A stretch of 54,565 bases of DNA, taken from positions 1-54,565 of the forward strand of contig SVAK01000006.1 of the NCBI GenBank assembly GCA_015059445.1. The letters are read 5' to 3'. The first letter of the stretch is position 1, and every line of letters begins with the position of its first letter. The DNA comes from Bacillota bacterium. GTDB taxonomy: Bacteria; Bacillota_I; Bacilli_A; RF39; UBA660. The notes beneath the pieces were generated by a model. The model saw nothing but the letters and a program-made list of their open reading frames with translations, was not told the DNA's origin and searched no databases. This document shows positions 26,936 through 35,467 of the stretch, piece by piece. Made by a program: the position numbers and the translations under genes.

Positions 26936-29170
26936 ATGGCAAAAAGAAAAAAATCAAAAGAGGCAAATAATCCAGGAATGAGTGTAGAATTAACAGGGTT
27001 AATTTTGGTATTAATTGGGATAATTGGATTTGGATTTGGTTATATTGGAACTATTATCAAAGAATTTGCAATGTTTTTATTAGGGTCTTGGTGGATTATT
27101 TTTGTCATTTATATTCTTTTAGTAGGATTATATATGTTGTTGAAAAGAAAAATGCCCAAATTTTTCTCTTCAAAATTAATTGGCTTTTATTTGGTTTTGA
27201 TAGTTATTTTAGTAGGTAGTCATTTTACTTTTTTGGATAAAACAGGAAGTCCAATGGAAATATTAAAAATAACTTTTGATCAATTTATGGAAAGAATGAA
27301 TACTATAAATATTTCTAATTCTATTTTGAATACAGGAAATACTTCAATAGCTATTGGAGGAGGGCTAATCGGAGCTGTATTTATTAGCGCATTATATTTC
27401 CTATTTGCTAAAACTGGCACTATTGTTGTTTTAGTGGTTATTGGCTTATTTGGTTTAATTATGTTGTTTGATATTACATTTACTGATATTTTTGAAAAAA
27501 TAAAAAGCTTTATTAGTACTAGGAGGTCCTCAAAAACTGGTAATTCTGAAGAAGATTTACCTAAACTTTCAGATATAGGTGAAGAAGTAGAATCTGAAAT
27601 GAAAAAGCTGCCAGAGAAAGATAATAAAATCATTATTACTAGTTTAGATGATTTAAAAAGTAAAAAGGTATCCGAAGTTGTAGAAGCTGAACCAATCATA
27701 GCAATTGATAAGCCATTAAGTAATGGTAGTTATAATTTGCCACCATTAAGCCTTTTAAATGAAATAAAAATTTCTAAAAAAGCTAGTTCAGATTCTTTTA
27801 CTTTAAATAATAAAGAAATATTAGAAAGGGTTTTAAAAGACTTTCAAATTACTGCTAAAGTAGTTGAGATTCATGTAGGCCCTGCTGTTACTCAATATGA
27901 AATAGTAGTACCAGCTGGTACAAAAGTAAGTAGAATACTATCAATAAATAAAGAAATTGCATTAGCGCTTGCTGCTAAAGATGTTCGAATTCAAGCACCA
28001 ATACCAGGGAAAAGTACTATTGGTATTGAGATACCTAATGAATCTATCAGCGCGGTTGCATTTAGAGAAATATTAGAAGCTAATAAAAATGTAAAAGATA
28101 AATATGGAATAATGGTTACATTAGGGAAAAACTTAATGGGTAAACCTATTGTAGCAGATATGACAAAGATGCCTCACCTTTTGGTGGCCGGTTCTACTGG
28201 TTCTGGTAAATCAGTTTGTATTAATTCGATTATTTGTTCAATATTTATGAATTATAACCCTAAAGATGTTAAATTGGTTTTAGTTGATCCTAAAAAAGTT
28301 GAACTTTCAAATTATAATGGAACGCCGCATTTGTTGTGTCCTGTAGTAACTGATCCAAAGAAAGCCTCAATAACACTTCAAAAAATTGTATCTGAGATGG
28401 AAAAAAGATATGATTTGTTTAGCGAGAAGGGCGCTAAAAAGATTAGCGAATATAATGAATATATTGACAAAGAAAATAAAAAACACCCAGAAACTCCACT
28501 TAATAAAATGCCATTTATAGTTGTTATAATTGACGAACTTGCTGATTTGATGTTAGTAGCAAGTAAAGAAGTAGAAGATTCAATTATGCGTATTACTCAA
28601 ATGGCCAGAGCAGCTGGTATTCATCTAATTGTTGCTACTCAAAGACCATCAACTGATGTTATTACAGGTGTAGTAAAAGCTAACATTCCATCACGTATTT
28701 GTTTTGCTGTTGCTAGTCAAATTGATTCACGTACTGCTCTGGATATGTCTGGTGCTGAAAAATTACTAGGTAAAGGTGATATGTTATATTTGCCTATGGG
28801 TGAAAATACACCGGAGCGTATTCAAGGCTGTTTTATATCAGATGATGAAATTAATAGATTAATTAATTATTGTACAAAACAGATGACTGCTACATATGAC
28901 GCAGATATTTCTTTAGCTAATGCCAAAGCAAACACAGAAGGTGGAGGCGATGGTGTAGATGGATATGATGATCCAATGTATAATGAAATTGTTGAATTTG
29001 CAGTCATGACAGGAAAGATTAGTGCTTCTTTAATTCAAAGAAAATTTAGGTTTGGTTTTAATAGGGCAGCAAGAATGATAGATTTATTAGAAGCAAGAGG
29101 AATTGTAGGACCACAAAATGGCTCGAAGCCAAGAGAAGTATTAGTAAAAAAAGAATCTGAGGAAGAATAA
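26936..29170 (+). CDS. ftsK: DNA translocase FtsK/SpoIIIE
   Basis: A membrane-anchored motor that pumps chromosomal DNA through the division or sporulation septum. The 744-residue protein has 4-5 N-terminal transmembrane helices, an acidic linker, the alpha/beta motor with Walker A AGSTGSGKS and Walker B VVIIDELADL, and a C-terminal winged-helix gamma domain (SLIQRKFRFGFNRAARMIDLLE) that reads polar DNA sequences. The linker is short, as in SpoIIIE/SftA-type proteins. Cell-division FtsK and sporulation SpoIIIE cannot be separated by eye. Start ATG 26936 follows GGTGAT, and its promoter is very close, so the leader is short. Confidence 0.94.
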   Translation: MAKRKKSKEANNPGMSVELTGLILVLIGIIGFGFGYIGTIIKEFAMFLLGSWWIIFVIYILLVGLYMLLKRKMPKFFSSKLIGFYLVLIVILVGSHFTFLDKTGSPMEILKITFDQFMERMNTINISNSILNTGNTSIAIGGGLIGAVFISALYFLFAKTGTIVVLVVIGLFGLIMLFDITFTDIFEKIKSFISTRRSSKTGNSEEDLPKLSDIGEEVESEMKKLPEKDNKIIITSLDDLKSKKVSEVVEAEPIIAIDKPLSNGSYNLPPLSLLNEIKISKKASSDSFTLNNKEILERVLKDFQITAKVVEIHVGPAVTQYEIVVPAGTKVSRILSINKEIALALAAKDVRIQAPIPGKSTIGIEIPNESISAVAFREILEANKNVKDKYGIMVTLGKNLMGKPIVADMTKMPHLLVAGSTGSGKSVCINSIICSIFMNYNPKDVKLVLVDPKKVELSNYNGTPHLLCPVVTDPKKASITLQKIVSEMEKRYDLFSEKGAKKISEYNEYIDKENKKHPETPLNKMPFIVVIIDELADLMLVASKEVEDSIMRITQMARAAGIHLIVATQRPSTDVITGVVKANIPSRICFAVASQIDSRTALDMSGAEKLLGKGDMLYLPMGENTPERIQGCFISDDEINRLINYCTKQMTATYDADISLANAKANTEGGGDGVDGYDDPMYNEIVEFAVMTGKISASLIQRKFRFGFNRAARMIDLLEARGIVGPQNGSKPREVLVKKESEEE

Positions 29171-29950: not shown

Positions 29951-30406
29951 ATGTTATTTGATAATAACGATATTGATTTAGATTTTACATTTTTAAATTT
30001 AGCCGGTTTAACAAATAATAATATGGAGTTTGATAGTGATAATAGAAATTTATTTGCTGCTAAAGAAGGCTTCTTAAGGGGAAATATGTTTAGAAATGAA
30101 TATAAGCCTTATAAAAATTTAACTTTTATAAATATTCGTCCTAAAAATGATAGAGATGCAAAGTTGTTTAATGTAATGTGTTATTCTTTTGCCATAACAG
30201 ATATGAATTTATATTTGGATGTTCATCCAGAAGATAGAAAAGCATTAACTTATTTAAAAGAATTAATAGTTGAGGAAGAAAAAGCAAAAAAAGAATATAT
30301 TATGAAATATGGTCCATTAAATGTTTGCGATACTAAGGGTGACAAATTCGACTGGATTAATGGTCCATGGTCTTGGGAAAATTTAGGAGGTAATATTTAT
30401 GTTTAA
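29951..30406 (+). CDS. cotJB: CotJB-type spore coat protein with CotJA-like N-terminal segment
   Basis: A 151-residue protein. Residues about 66-144 match CotJB: LFNVMCYSFAITDMNLYLDVHPED, a YGPL segment, and the ending FDWINGPWSWE. Residues 34-55 (LFAAKEGFLRGNMFRNEYKPY) resemble the C-terminal half of CotJA, where a phased A-L-x-x-G-T-hydrophobic element is followed by L-x-x-P-Y. In Bacillus cotJA, cotJB and cotJC are separate genes of one operon for an inner-coat/Mn catalase complex; here the first two appear joined. GGAGGT lies 8 bp before the ATG. It overlaps cotJC by 8 bp. Confidence 0.75.
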   Translation: MLFDNNDIDLDFTFLNLAGLTNNNMEFDSDNRNLFAAKEGFLRGNMFRNEYKPYKNLTFINIRPKNDRDAKLFNVMCYSFAITDMNLYLDVHPEDRKALTYLKELIVEEEKAKKEYIMKYGPLNVCDTKGDKFDWINGPWSWENLGGNIYV

Positions 30407-30956
30407 GTATGTAAAACACACTAACTTTCCAATAAATATAACTAAGAAAGATTTAAAAATGGCTAAATACCTTATGACACAATTTGGCGGTGCTAATGGA
30501 GAACTTGCAGCGGCGATGCGTTATTTTAGTCAAAAATTTACAATGCCAGACGATAAAGGAAAAGCACTACTTAATGATATTTCTACCGAAGAACTAGGAC
30601 ACTGTGAAATGATTTGTACAATGGTTAATCAACTTACTAAAAATGCTACATTAAAAGAATTAGAAGAAGCAGGACTTTCTTCATATTATGCAGATCATAA
30701 TAAAGGAATCTATCCAGTAGATGCATCAGGTGTACCATTTACTGCAACATATTTTGCTGTAACAGCTGATCCAATAGCAGACCTTATGGAAGATATGGCA
30801 GCAGAACAAAAAGCAAGAGCGGTATATGAAAACTTAATTGATTTAACAACTGATGAAGATGTACTAGCACCATTATTATGGCTTCGTCAAAGAGAAGTAG
30901 TGCATTTCAATAGATTCAAAGAATTATATGAATATTATAAAAGCAAAGGATATTAA
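30399..30956 (+). CDS. cotJC: Manganese catalase-like spore coat protein CotJC
   Basis: A 185-residue ferritin-like dimanganese protein (CotJC/Mn catalase family) that can decompose hydrogen peroxide. It shows GGANGELAAAMRYFSQKF with a metal-ligand glutamate, the TEELGHCEM helix with the E-x-x-H pair, and a C-terminal RQREVVHFNRFKE helix carrying another E-x-x-H. Length is typical for CotJC. GGAGG within the end of the previous gene serves as ribosome site, so the pair is translationally coupled. In a spore-former it would sit in the coat; in an anaerobe it would also protect against peroxide. Confidence 0.9.
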   Translation: MFKYVKHTNFPINITKKDLKMAKYLMTQFGGANGELAAAMRYFSQKFTMPDDKGKALLNDISTEELGHCEMICTMVNQLTKNATLKELEEAGLSSYYADHNKGIYPVDASGVPFTATYFAVTADPIADLMEDMAAEQKARAVYENLIDLTTDEDVLAPLLWLRQREVVHFNRFKELYEYYKSKGY

Positions 30957-31023: not shown

Positions 31024-31042
31024 TTATCTGAGGTGGAATAGT

Positions 31043-31318
31043 ATGCAAAATAATCAAGACACATAGGACAATATGTATATGCCAGGTGATAAAGCAGTAA
31101 GATTTACTGGTATTCTTGATGAACCAGAAAATATTACAAATACAGCCAAAGGATATAGTTATAAATCATATGATGGTAAAGAATGGCCAACTTTGAAATT
31201 GGCAATGGAATATAATGATAAATTATTGAAAAGTATGAAAATTAATCCAAATCCTATGTTCTATGGTATAGAAGATATAACTCCTGGTTTATATGATATT
31301 GAAAATAGGTCTAGATAA
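31043..31318 (+). pseudogene. Small hypothetical gene with an amber codon after seven codons
   Basis: A near-perfect promoter and AGGTGG with 6-bp spacing point to ATG 31043 as the true start. The frame reads MQNNQDT, then TAG (31064-31066), then continues to ATG 31073 and on to the stop at 31318. The TAG is one base from a glutamine codon (CAG). Translation could restart at ATG 31073, only 7 bases past the stop, giving an 81-residue protein (contains DGKEWPTLKLAMEYND) with no family I recognise. Either a recent nonsense mutation or a reinitiation arrangement. TAG is used as a normal stop elsewhere in the window. Confidence 0.5.
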
Positions 31319-31364: not shown

Positions 31365-31475
31365 AGATGAAGGAAACTTCATAAAATAAAAAAGGAACAC
31401 TTAATAACGCATGTTGAGTGTTGCCATAGAAATGGTTACCACCTAAATCATTGCTGAGTTAGGTGGTTTTCTTTT
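31365..31475 (+). ncRNA. Candidate antitoxin antisense RNA (~110 nt)
   Basis: From the predicted start near 31365 the RNA folds into an ATGAAG/CTTCAT hairpin with a GAAA loop (31367-31382), a 9-bp AACACTTAA/TTGAGTGTT hairpin (31396-31422, one G-T), a small CCAT/ATGG hairpin, and a terminator with perfect ACCACCTAA/TTAGGTGGT stem (31438-31467) and a T-rich tail. It is convergent with the small hydrophobic peptide gene on the minus strand, whose mRNA would run over the same bases to a separate minus-strand terminator. This is the layout of type I antitoxin RNAs such as RatA or par RNAII. Confidence 0.6.
31385..31422 (-). terminator. Minus-strand terminator of the toxin mRNA
   Basis: Read on the minus strand, AACACTCAA/TTAAGTGTT is followed by CCTTTTTTATTTT. 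The same hairpin has no T run on the plus strand, so it is directional. Confidence 0.6.
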
Positions 31476-31557
31476 ATATTAAAACTATAAATAGCAATAA
31501 TAATAAAAGGAAAATAATTATGAATAATACTATGATTAAAAAATCTTTCTTATGCAT
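31474..31557 (-). CDS. 27-residue hydrophobic peptide, candidate type I toxin
   Basis: Starting at 31557, a strong GGGAGG (31570-31565) with 7-bp spacing precedes ATG. The peptide begins MHKKDF and then consists almost only of Ile, Leu, Phe and Val, forming one membrane helix, and ends at TAA 31476-31474. A promoter on the same strand (31618-31646), a 5' leader of about 55 nt, and a 3' end overlapped by a convergent RNA match the plan of Fst/TxpA-type membrane toxins. No sequence family is recognised, so function is inferred from layout and composition. Confidence 0.6.
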   Translation of the reverse strand: MHKKDFLIIVLFIIIFLLLLLLFIVLI

Positions 31558-31617
31558 ATTATCGCCTCCCTTCATTAGAAGATTGGCACCACCCAACTTA
31601 TTAAGATTCCTAAAATC

Positions 31618-31733: not shown

Positions 31734-32100
31734 GTTGAGTTAGGACATTGTGAAATGATAGCAGCAATGGTTAATCAGTTAACTAAGAATGCGACATTAA
31801 AAGAATTAGAAGTAGCAGGACTTGCATCATATTATGCAGATCATAATAAAGGAATATATCCAGTAGATGTTTCAGGTGTACAATTTACAGCAATATATTT
31901 TGCTGTAACAGCAGATCCAATAACAGATTTAATGGAAGATATGACATTAGAACAAAGAGCAAGAAAAGTATATGAAAATTTAAATTGATTTAACATCTAT
32001 TGAGGTGTATTAGATCATTATTATGGATCATCAAAAAGAAATAGTACATTTCAATAGATTTAAAGAGTTATATGAATATTATAAGAGTAAAGGATATTAA
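31734..32100 (+). pseudogene. Truncated second cotJC copy
   Basis: From 31734 the sequence is closely similar to cotJC from its ELGHCEM helix onward, then shows indels and stops around 31986-32030 and ends with the same HFNRFKELYEYYKSKGY tail at TAA 32098-32100. The first ~65 codons are absent; the sequence before the junction belongs to the toxin-antitoxin module. No ribosome site is visible. It is a broken duplicate of 30399-30956. Confidence 0.85.
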
Positions 32101-32155
32101 ATTAGTAAAATATATGTCAATTTTTATTTTAAAAATAAGTTTTGAAGCAATGTGT

Positions 32156-32164
32156 TGATATAAT
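32156..32164 (+). promoter_or_regulatory. Extended -10 promoter of the nucleotidyltransferase gene
   Basis: TGATATAAT (TGnTATAAT form), no clear -35, about 25 bp before ATG 32189, with AGAGGTGAT in between. Confidence 0.5.
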
Positions 32165-32188
32165 TATTTTAATAGAGGTGATTCTACT

Positions 32189-35100
32189 ATGGGAATTAAT
32201 GACTTTATTAGAAACATTAAGCAAAAAAGATATATAAAAAAATTAATCGAGAATAATGACTTTGGCAATTTAGTAAAGTTTATAAAAGATAACATTGAAA
32301 ATTATGAAGTTGATCTAGATTTTGTGGATGAGGTCTTTGGAACTTCTGCTAAAAGATTTCTAAAAGTATTTGATGATAATGGTAATTTTATTTTAGATAA
32401 TAACACTAGTATTTGGACGATTATATTTAACCAAAAATTAAAGAGAATATTAATCTCAGTTGATAGTAATTGGGAAAAAAAGTTTACTCCAATTCAAGTA
32501 CAATATATTAAATATTCCTTAGAAAATCCAGATTTCGACGATGTATTTTGGTATGCTGATGATAGTGATGTTGATAATTTGCTAACAAAATATTTTGATG
32601 GAGAAAAAATAAAGGATAACATTTTTGATTTGCTGATAAATAGATGCCCAGAATGTGGTAGGGAATTCTTCAAAAATCCGGAGTACAAAAAGCATTTTAC
32701 TAAATTAGAAATAAATTATTTGATGAACTATAATAATTTAGATGAAAATTTTGAACATCTTATGTCTTTAAAAAGTTCAAAAAGAGAATTGTTGCCTCTT
32801 TATTATGATGGTAGAAAGTTATTGCCGATGTATTATCATGAAATAATGTTTGATGCTTATTTTTGTGATGATATTTGGGAGAATATACATAAATATAAGA
32901 AACACTACAGCAAATTGCAATTAGCCTTTATTAAAAAATTTCGTTCAAATGAAACAGCAATGAATATCTTTGGAAATATTGGGGTGAATGCAAATAATTT
33001 GTCAGAATTTTTTTATTTAGAAAACAACAACTTGAAATTACAACCAAAAATTGCAAGAGAATGGTTTGATTGTGGGTATTACACAATATTGGAGAACATT
33101 TATGAAGAAGATTTTTCTGAATGTGAGTTAAGCGAAAATGAAATAAAAATATTAAAAATATACCAAAATATAAATACATCACGTTCCAAAGAAACATTTT
33201 TAGAAATATTAACTACCAAAAAAAATGATATATTTGCATCAGAAAAAAAATTGGAATCATTTTTGAATTTAATTGTGTCACTTTTAAACATTTTAGAAAT
33301 GTCTAATTCTACTGAATTAGATAATTTTAAAGTAGAATTTATAGCTCAGTTGTTAGACCACGAAAATCCTCAAAAAGCACTTGAAGATATAAATGATGTG
33401 TATACGAGAAATAATTTGCCAATTGTAGCAAAAGTTTTTTTAACTTTTAAAATACTAAATAAGAATTATGATAGATTTGACATGGATTTAGAAGGTTCTA
33501 GTATATCTCCAATCTTGTTACAATGTAAAAATGATTATGAACGTGATAAGATTATTTTTTCTGATTTATTAAAAGCGACATTAGGTTCAAATAATAGGTC
33601 TATAAGAGATTACTTGTTAAATATTAAAGAAGGAAACGAATTATTTTTTAAGGTAAAAAATAATGGATTAGATAGTTTATCACGTAGAGAATTTAATACA
33701 TTACAAATATTTGTTAGCCACTTAAGAGTTCTATATAACAATACAAAAATAGGAAAACAGAAACCTAATACATTAACAGGTAATTTACTAGTTGATATTC
33801 AAATATTGAGTGAAGCTTTTGGTGTTACTGAACGTTATGATTTGCCAGATAGAATAATTAGAATGTACGGTTTTTTTGCTGGTTTTAAATCATTTAATGA
33901 AATTTGGGAATATTTTATTTCAAAAAGGGAAATTGCTGATAAAAGAAACAGATTAAATGCTGAAAAAATCACTATTAGTGGTTTTAAATTACAAAGTGGT
34001 GATTTTATCAAAGGTATTGGTTCAATAGATTATTTATCTGATATACTCCAAAATGGATCGGTAGCCAAAGAATTTTTAGGGGCTAGTTCTACTAGTGATG
34101 CCACCCCGTTAGATACAGATTTATCCAGAATTGATAACCCCAATGATAATTTATCATCTATGATAGATAAAACTAAAGCTGGTAATTATGGGCCGATATG
34201 GTTTGTGCTCAAAAATAAAAAAAGCATAACAGTAACTAGAGACGAATTTGGTAATAAAAGTGATTATGATAGAGATAACTTGGAAGCTTTTGTCACTGTC
34301 GGGAATAATCATTATGGAATTAGGACCGGATTTGCCTCAAGTGAAATAGATTTTATTATAATAGATAATGAAGAAATAACCGAATTGTTACCAGAAATAA
34401 AGCACTTATTAGTTATTAATGGTTTTTATGTGCCGATTGTAGATAAAAATAATGGAAAATTACTATTTTTGCCAAAAGAATTTGATGACATGAGAAAAAA
34501 ATTAAGTGGTTTAAGAAATTATGATTCATATGATTTTCAATTTTCAGATAATTTATTAGTTGATAGTGAAATAAATGATATAATAAACGGCATTAATGAC
34601 TGCCAAAAAGACGCAGATTTAAAAAAGAAAAAAATTAATGAAAGTATCAAAATGGCCTTAAAAGGCTTAAATTTAGAATTCAAAGATTATTTTGATTATG
34701 ATATTAATTTAGGAAATGTTCAACTAATTGATACAGGTTCAACTGGTAGAGGAACTAGTATCGGCAAATCTTCTGATTTTGATTTTATTATGAGAATTGA
34801 TAGTAATACTGATATACAAGATTTAAAAAAAGCAATTATGGAAGCCTTAAATATAGATCCTAGTCAAGATACAATGAAAAATTTGAGATTAAAAAATGTT
34901 GAGATTCCAGGTGTAAATGAACCGGTGGATATAGATATAAGTTTTGTTAGAAAAAGAAATACTAATTTTTATAGTACAGATATAGCTTTAAAAGATAGAT
35001 TAGAGCAAATTAAAACTCAAGATGAGAAAAGATATAAAGAAGTATTGGCAAATATTATTTTAGCTAAAAAAGTGTTAAAAGAAGCAAAAGCTTATAAACC

Positions 35101-35467
35101 TAGTCACTCAATAGATGCAAGCGAAGGAGGCCTTGGTGGAGTTGGTGTTGAAAATTGGATTTTACAACATGGCGGTTCTTTTTACGATGCTGCAATGAGT
35201 TTTGTGGCTACAGCGCACGGAAAAACATTCGAAGAATTTAAAAAAAATTATGTAATTTGGGATTACGGATTAAATTATTATACAGGAAAATTCGATGAAT
35301 TTGTTTCTGGAAATATGACTGAAGCAGGATATAAAAATATGAAAAAAGCTTTAGAGGAATATTTAAAAACGGTGAAAGTTGCTGAAAAGGACAATAGTCA
35401 AACATATGAAATTACCCAAAATAATGTAGATTCTTATATTCTCGATGAAGGATCTTTGCATAGATAG
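32189..35467 (+). CDS. Large protein with C-terminal class I nucleotidyltransferase domain
   Basis: A 1092-residue protein without signal or membrane segments. The C-terminal part holds a polymerase-beta-type nucleotidyltransferase: GSTGRGTS (G850, S851), a DFD pair (D863, D865), a third acidic strand DID (D914, D916), and GLGGVGVENWILQHGGSF, which parallels the GG..GYL.E.L...GSF element of archaeal CCA-adding enzymes and CD-NTase/OAS relatives. The centre (about 590-800) has LQNGSVAKEFLGASST, YGPIWFVL and IRTGFASSEID (R712-D721), whose Ser-Glu pattern could fit an ADP-ribosyltransferase-like fold, though this is weak. The N-terminal ~580 residues are mostly helical, with one CPECG. Substrate unknown; a defence, toxin or signalling role is possible. 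Sits beside a toxin-antitoxin candidate and pseudogenes. Confidence 0.65.
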   Translation: MGINDFIRNIKQKRYIKKLIENNDFGNLVKFIKDNIENYEVDLDFVDEVFGTSAKRFLKVFDDNGNFILDNNTSIWTIIFNQKLKRILISVDSNWEKKFTPIQVQYIKYSLENPDFDDVFWYADDSDVDNLLTKYFDGEKIKDNIFDLLINRCPECGREFFKNPEYKKHFTKLEINYLMNYNNLDENFEHLMSLKSSKRELLPLYYDGRKLLPMYYHEIMFDAYFCDDIWENIHKYKKHYSKLQLAFIKKFRSNETAMNIFGNIGVNANNLSEFFYLENNNLKLQPKIAREWFDCGYYTILENIYEEDFSECELSENEIKILKIYQNINTSRSKETFLEILTTKKNDIFASEKKLESFLNLIVSLLNILEMSNSTELDNFKVEFIAQLLDHENPQKALEDINDVYTRNNLPIVAKVFLTFKILNKNYDRFDMDLEGSSISPILLQCKNDYERDKIIFSDLLKATLGSNNRSIRDYLLNIKEGNELFFKVKNNGLDSLSRREFNTLQIFVSHLRVLYNNTKIGKQKPNTLTGNLLVDIQILSEAFGVTERYDLPDRIIRMYGFFAGFKSFNEIWEYFISKREIADKRNRLNAEKITISGFKLQSGDFIKGIGSIDYLSDILQNGSVAKEFLGASSTSDATPLDTDLSRIDNPNDNLSSMIDKTKAGNYGPIWFVLKNKKSITVTRDEFGNKSDYDRDNLEAFVTVGNNHYGIRTGFASSEIDFIIIDNEEITELLPEIKHLLVINGFYVPIVDKNNGKLLFLPKEFDDMRKKLSGLRNYDSYDFQFSDNLLVDSEINDIINGINDCQKDADLKKKKINESIKMALKGLNLEFKDYFDYDINLGNVQLIDTGSTGRGTSIGKSSDFDFIMRIDSNTDIQDLKKAIMEALNIDPSQDTMKNLRLKNVEIPGVNEPVDIDISFVRKRNTNFYSTDIALKDRLEQIKTQDEKRYKEVLANIILAKKVLKEAKAYKPSHSIDASEGGLGGVGVENWILQHGGSFYDAAMSFVATAHGKTFEEFKKNYVIWDYGLNYYTGKFDEFVSGNMTEAGYKNMKKALEEYLKTVKVAEKDNSQTYEITQNNVDSYILDEGSLHR

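Follow-up and report, generated by a model that had tools for sequence, protein, structure and literature searches.

An accessory Bacilli protein with an ADP-ribosyltransferase-like domain and a CD-NTase/CCA-type nucleotidyltransferase on one chain

The window, by which we mean the whole stretch of 54,565 nucleotides analysed here (assembly GCA_015059445.1, contig SVAK01000006.1), contains the intact gene of a stand-alone protein, P0001, which is laid out as a variable helical arm, a conserved helical block, a domain resembling ADP-ribosyltransferases (ARTs) and a nucleotidyltransferase (NTase) of the CD-NTase/OAS/CCA type (Table 1). The first-pass annotation had given the reading frame and its length correctly, and had been unable to name a family for the central block and the N terminus; indeed, profile searches with Pfam, NCBIfam and PHROG brought no family above cut-off across P0001, and a match to a known housekeeping family was looked for and not found. 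Weak Pfam matches to pRN1_helical, Crinkler, zf-C2H2, Prefoldin and HEPN_RiboL-PSP (4/38) were inconsistent among family members and were set aside. The Rfam search returned no RNA element worth keeping. Of the promoter that had been assigned to the gene, the extended -10 element is present by eye and a good -35 partner is absent; because promoter-like matches around P0001 occur at chance level (39 observed versus 34.4 expected), we regard it as a plausible candidate at most.

Table 1. Features at the P0001 locus, in positions of the window
Feature	Positions	Strand	Residues	Basis or remark
Decayed second copy of the CotJC-like 3' end	31737–32103	+		left of P0001; broken frame
Candidate extended -10, TGATATAAT	32156–32164	+		reading by eye; statistics give no support
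Shine-Dalgarno, AGAGGTGA	32174–32181	+		reading by eye; 7 nt 5' of the P0001 ATG
P0001, stand-alone protein	32189–35467	+	1092 aa	intact ORF; ATG start
Variable helical N-terminal arm	32189–33118	+	1–310	30% identity to L086, versus 55% in the core
All-helical conserved block	33119–33979	+	311–597	motifs SNS.E, NNLP..K, GSNNRS, DR..RM; all helices here in the AlphaFold2 core model
Central domain, probable ART fold	33998–34528	+	604–780	separate AlphaFold2 model, pLDDT 86.3; Foldseek
Nucleotidyltransferase domain	34676–35386	+	830–1066	Foldseek PDB; PADLOC Cyclase profile
NTase motif GSTGR...DFD	34736–34783	+	G850, S851, R854, D863, D865	invariant in 81/81
Third acidic NTase residue	34934–34936	+	D916	invariant in 81/81
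Element GLGGVGVENWILQHGGS	35129–35179	+	981–997	E988, W990, G996 invariant in 81/81

P0001 stands next to a gene at 30399–30956 that we take to be CotJC-like, and the slot beside that gene holds P0001 together with a remnant that has 75–83% DNA identity to the intact CotJC-like gene of sister genomes. In four of these (G004, G003, G013, G006) the slot is empty, the CotJC-like gene being separated from the gene of a 170-aa membrane protein by only ~330–370 bp, an interval that holds a small membrane gene. Four others (G018, G005, G002, G015) carry another gene there on the opposite strand, presumably DUF3800-like, and because these loci (L164, L168, L169, L170) hold a different reverse-strand gene, the slot looks like a hot spot for accessory genes. 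Around P0001 lie genes of the spore-coat type, small membrane genes and translation genes, which are also there at the empty sites; none of the genes next to it is a known defence gene or effector.

A prfB-like gene is instead the neighbour of five relatives from the window's genus. In our family tree, a quick tree with a midpoint root, P0001 clusters with L086, L087 and L091 (support 97–99) and those of the prfB-adjacent copies that were sampled (L115, L120, L139) form a clade of their own, a position apart from the congeners' copies which indicates that P0001 was gained independently of them. Most Saccharibacterial sequences fall in a clade inside the Firmicutes part of the tree, and those of Patescibacteria in a separate clade. 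Serine recombinases lie near six relatives, and no partner gene was found to recur beside relatives in the Bacilli loci. From the empty sites, the alternative cargo, the tree, the recombinases and the missing Bacilli partner, our best reading of the P0001 gene is an accessory unit, one gene in size, that moves horizontally, and the accessory neighbourhood proposed in the first pass is borne out by the sister genomes.

Two further stretches lie to the left of the gene. On the reverse strand, 31474–31590 is a short ORF ending in MHKKDFLIIVLFIIIFLLLLLLFIVLI, with a Shine-Dalgarno sequence and a terminator-like hairpin alongside; it looks like a hydrophobic peptide of the type I toxin kind, and is probably the toxin-antitoxin candidate of the first-pass annotation. 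The region 31040–31318 is a possible pseudogene, whose small ORF (31073–31318) seems to be the remainder of a gene with a TAG cutting off the upstream start (ATGCAAAATAATCAAGACACATAG).

The last ~780 residues of P0001 form one conserved three-part unit of helical block, ART-like domain and NTase. An AlphaFold2 model of this core (residues 311–1092, 38-row alignment; pLDDT 86.9, pTM 0.86) runs from helices up to ~597 through a mixed alpha/beta domain and a long helix to the NTase. What had been described as a helical N terminus of ~580 residues is helical, but falls into two parts, of which the second is conserved from Bacilli to Patescibacteria (81 aligned relatives) and the first, to which most relatives show no match, is presumed to be a sensor or targeting part. 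In pairs of relatives the core evolves under purifying selection (dN/dS 0.15–0.42), and three of the four pairs have a faster-evolving N-terminal part (core versus N-terminal part 0.15 versus 0.32, 0.20 versus 0.38, 0.31 versus 0.72), consistent with an enzyme that is maintained while its arm diversifies. The ART-like domain and the NTase co-occur in 81 of 81 aligned relatives from several phyla.

The C-terminal NTase, proposed earlier as an OAS/CCA-type enzyme with its catalytic residues kept, stood up to structural comparison. A Foldseek search of the core model against the PDB led to the CBASS enzymes CdnC (6p8v/6p80/6u7b, E 6.5e-4 to 1.1e-3), and the same list held archaeal CCA-adding enzymes (1r89/4x4u) and OAS1 (4rwp), at TM-scores of 0.3–0.5 on the target; searching PDB sequences with profiles or with single sequences added nothing informative. 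PADLOC 'oligonucleotide-cyclase' profiles are the only profiles that reach the domain, weakly (E 1e-4), and one of them, the Cyclase profile PDLC00776, matches 23 of 38 family members; the SMODS cut-off is not reached. The GS motif and all three acidic positions (G850-S851, D863-x-D865, D916) are identical in 81 of 81 aligned relatives and, with the NTase fold, place P0001 in the CD-NTase/pol-beta superfamily; R854, D871, N955, K960, K964, E988, W990 and G996 are likewise invariant or nearly so. The GG..GSF element is present as GLGGVGVENWILQHGGSF at residues 981–998, and its GG.GG.G.ENW...GGS pattern resembles, as we take it, the region that follows the catalytic core in archaeal CCA enzymes and OAS1. 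Judged by sequence, these conserved residues imply that the family is enzymatically active.

The central domain was folded alone from 60 sequences with AlphaFold2. In the Foldseek search that followed, yeast Tpt1 leads the PDB matches (probability 0.98, TM 0.61 on the target), and DarT1, archaeal Tpt1/KptA, CteC, DarT, cholix and PltA come after it; a comparison of this region (residues 590–800) with ADP-ribosyltransferases had been proposed in the first pass. The matches are individually weak (E 0.02–2, best 0.02; TM about 0.3–0.6), yet one superfamily dominates the top of the list, and for this reason we accept that the modelled domain very probably has an ART fold. Against a viral library the domain matched unnamed proteins at E 1.6e-4, with a PARP-like protein further down. 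Its motifs are GD..KG, G623, E628, SD.TP.D.D (636–644), E699 and HYGIRTG (708–714), and invariant or nearly invariant among the 81 relatives are G604, D605, K/R608, G623, E628, D637, T639, P640, D642, D644, E699, G710, R712, T713, G714, P749 and G774. The 'IRTGFASSEID' block singled out earlier is thus real and conserved, with G710, R712, T713 and G714 present in 78–81 of the 81. An HHalign comparison with E. coli KptA placed KGIGSIDYLSDILQNGSVAKE on the expected ART motif-1 helix, with K608 (K/R in 81/81) opposite the motif-1 His; the score is no better than that of 13 control E. coli proteins, for which reason we did not count it as evidence and treat the alignment as a lead only. From the model, the domain may be catalytically active as an ART.

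The family is sparsely distributed. It occurs in 8 of 120 related genomes, which contradicts a conserved single-copy syntenic gene, and, within the same family, in 33 of 386 genomes (about 9%). A single-sequence query of the GTDB genome contigs retrieved nothing, whereas the 38-row alignment gave 78 loci from the best 80 of 129 confirmed candidates, and these come from uncultured Bacilli, Clostridia, Saccharibacteria and Patescibacteria (Paceibacterota, Zambryskibacteria, Uhrbacteria, Magasanikbacteria, Daviesbacteria). Relatives match residues ~315–1066, mostly at 35–47% identity, usually leaving the N-terminal arm unmatched; the closest among the matches listed is L086 (1110 aa). Carriers include organisms with very small genomes, namely gut Bacilli of ~1 Mb, Saccharibacteria and Patescibacteria. 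In the phages, plasmids and viral contigs searched, no family member was found.

Several relatives depart from the plan of P0001. L127:341–12442 carries three full-length paralogues in tandem (1167, 1420 and 1407 aa). On the reverse strand, L017:6952–10503 encodes a relative with the NTase half, most of the ART domain missing and, at the C terminus, a different large region that bears a TRHNHDE motif, of which a varied form is also seen in L048. Members at L109:2531–6445 and L110:518–4351 end in an additional hydrophobic segment; to judge from these sequences, part of the family may be anchored in the membrane.

In other genomes the three-part unit forms part of much larger proteins, 2,014–6,816 aa in length. 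The giant forms occupy separate clades of the tree, and all six genomes with forms of at least 2,000 aa have EssC matches (G123, G248, G359, G415, G234, G408), those of G359 being two fragments below cut-off, one of them directly upstream of the giant relative. One such protein, of 3,017 aa (L049:3865–12916), has an EssC fragment and WXG100-like genes upstream of it, the latter assigned by eye. The giant at L050 has a PF03496 ART (E 1.2e-14); motifs of the HExxH, transglutaminase-like and HD-like kinds were picked out in it by eye. L048:1251–16553, L050:2–9067 and L046 (a 6,816-aa ORF) are giant multi-enzyme proteins from EssC-bearing genomes, and in the first two DarT-like and PF03496-type ARTs, HExxH, transglutaminase-like and HD-like stretches share one chain with the P0001 unit. 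The window's own genome, a MAG that is 95% complete, yielded no EssC, its sole match being an FtsK/SpoIIIE-type translocase at 28172–28807, and in at least eight further carriers of the stand-alone form no match passes the cut-off (gaps in MAGs are possible). Subject to this incompleteness, the stand-alone form seems independent of type VII secretion; because the window's genome has no EssC, it probably acts inside its own cell.

What, then, could such a protein do? The predicted domain folds and the accessory status of P0001 are well supported; its ART activity, its sensing, the growth arrest, its substrates and a defence role we infer, and the signalling or tRNA-modifying roles suggested in the first pass are likewise putative. 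The family probably serves in conflicts, whether with phages or with rival cells, and our preferred reading, which we hold tentatively and rate at somewhat short of an even chance, is that P0001 is an accessory, horizontally moving, sensor-gated conflict protein of a defence-like kind that acts in its own cell through ART and NTase. The variable arm would sense a trigger or pick a target, and the conserved helical block would couple it to the two linked catalytic domains. The ART would use NAD+ to ADP-ribosylate nucleic acid, or would strip phosphate from it, and the NTase would add nucleotides to a nucleic-acid end or build an oligonucleotide out of NTPs. Once activated, the protein would put RNA or nucleotide metabolism out of action and halt growth, for example that of a phage-infected cell; within the giant proteins, at least one of them in a type VII locus, the same unit would act in a neighbour cell. 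In support we count the intact NTase site, the ART fold with nucleic-acid-acting ARTs atop the list, the linkage of the domains, purifying selection on the core beside a fast arm, the patchy presence and slot polymorphism, the tree, the recombinases, the stand-alone carriers without EssC and the occurrence of the unit in giants, of which one also has a PF03496 ART and one adjoins EssC. Counted against it are the weak ART matches, KG in place of an HGT-type motif and the control-level HHalign to KptA; so are the lack of a known defence gene or effector next to P0001 and the family's absence from the phages, plasmids and viral contigs searched, which are common vehicles of defence genes.

The giant forms could also be read the other way round, with P0001 exported into neighbours as a secreted interbacterial type VII toxin and the stand-alone copies serving as effectors or as cassettes that feed giant toxins. 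The EssC matches of all six giant-bearing genomes, the L049 locus and the separate clades of the giants speak for this, and re-use of the module in giant multi-enzyme proteins recalls the polymorphic multi-domain toxins (PMC3482391) and type VIIb effectors. Unlike these, P0001 stands alone in a genome without EssC, which sets it apart from type VIIb effectors, has no recognisable N-terminal export domain and has no immunity gene adjoining it, so that we consider export unlikely. Similarly, but still less probable in our judgement, a protein of RNA end repair or tRNA quality could join a KptA/Tpt1-like ART that cleans RNA ends to a CCA-like NTase that rebuilds them. Tpt1/KptA and CCA enzymes both act on RNA ends, both are among the fold matches, and the conserved residues imply activity. 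The patchy presence and slot polymorphism are unlike housekeeping repair, however, and led us to set a housekeeping reading aside; the arm is fast and variable, and a Lys stands where KptA has its motif-1 His. Nor does P0001 belong with the named enzymes: it shares the NTase superfamily with archaeal class I CCA-adding enzymes and OAS1 but has extra domains, ~13% identity and no universal single-copy distribution, and the resemblance of its central domain to Tpt1/KptA and DarT, in fold and in the local alignment at the motif-1 helix (at control-level score), goes with KG(I/V) for HGT and with Pfam cut-offs for PTS_2-RNA (PF01885) and DarT that were unreached. The genome has no match to PF14487, and no DarG, NADAR or macrodomain partner gene accompanies P0001, which sets it apart from DarTG.

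About equally improbable is an all-in-one relative of CBASS, in which the NTase would make a cyclic oligonucleotide that activates the ART of the same chain. CdnC structures are the nearest to the NTase and share its fold and GS...DxD...D set, the PADLOC cyclase profile reaches most of the members compared, and the two domains keep company in all aligned relatives. Against this, the NTase of P0001 is fused behind an ART-like domain and ~600 helical residues, the SMODS cut-off is unreached, a known ligand-binding domain is not recognised, and no Cap effector, HORMA, TRIP13, E1/E2 or JAB gene was recognised alongside, which also excludes canonical CBASS. A type II toxin-antitoxin-like toxin of the MenT or DarT kind, restrained by a neighbouring antitoxin, appears highly improbable. 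MenT and other NTase toxins are pol-beta type NTases that block tRNA, their chemistry is plausibly common to P0001, and ART toxins such as DarT exist as well. In seven Clostridia loci (L141, L145, L146, L147, L153, L158, L159) a gene of one family (96–152 aa, ~150 aa) follows the relative by about 10–115 bp, and its product is a possible partner, regulator or immunity protein. This gene is absent from the Bacilli loci, the window included, the 67-aa gene downstream of P0001 also occupies empty sites, and P0001 differs greatly from MenT in size and architecture and lacks an antitoxin partner; with no conserved adjacent antitoxin gene in the Bacilli loci, we rejected a TA pair, and the toxin-antitoxin arrangement suggested in the first pass did not hold.

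Returning to P0001 as a conflict protein of its own cell, a bolder form of this proposal, which we think rather unlikely, is an undescribed system in which ART and CD-NTase on one polypeptide act one on the other's product or acceptor, for example with oligonucleotides made or RNA extended by the NTase becoming ADP-ribosylated. A fast-evolving helical sensor would gate it, and it would provide cell-autonomous immunity in reduced-genome gut Bacilli and Patescibacteria and be re-used as a weapon delivered by type VII secretion.

PMC9503650, PMC3482391 and related literature deal with ARTs in general, with KptA and DarT, with giant multi-toxin proteins and with NTase toxins of the RelA/SpoT kind. 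Within the open-licence literature on ARTs with CD-NTases, OAS-like NTases, KptA or Patescibacteria we found no ART–NTase fusion like P0001, an absence that is not proof, and none of the family models covers it.

In summary, P0001 belongs to a new family, assembled from conflict-enzyme folds that are themselves known, and common to gut Firmicutes and Patescibacteria. Both ART domains and CD-NTase domains have a central place in bacterial immunity and toxins, and in the open-licence papers we found no account of the two fused into a single conserved catalytic unit. The clear motifs of the family, GS/DxD, E699 and K608, make it directly testable. Should P0001 prove to be an enzyme of defence or signalling, the repertoire known so far would gain a chemistry that couples NAD+ and nucleotides.
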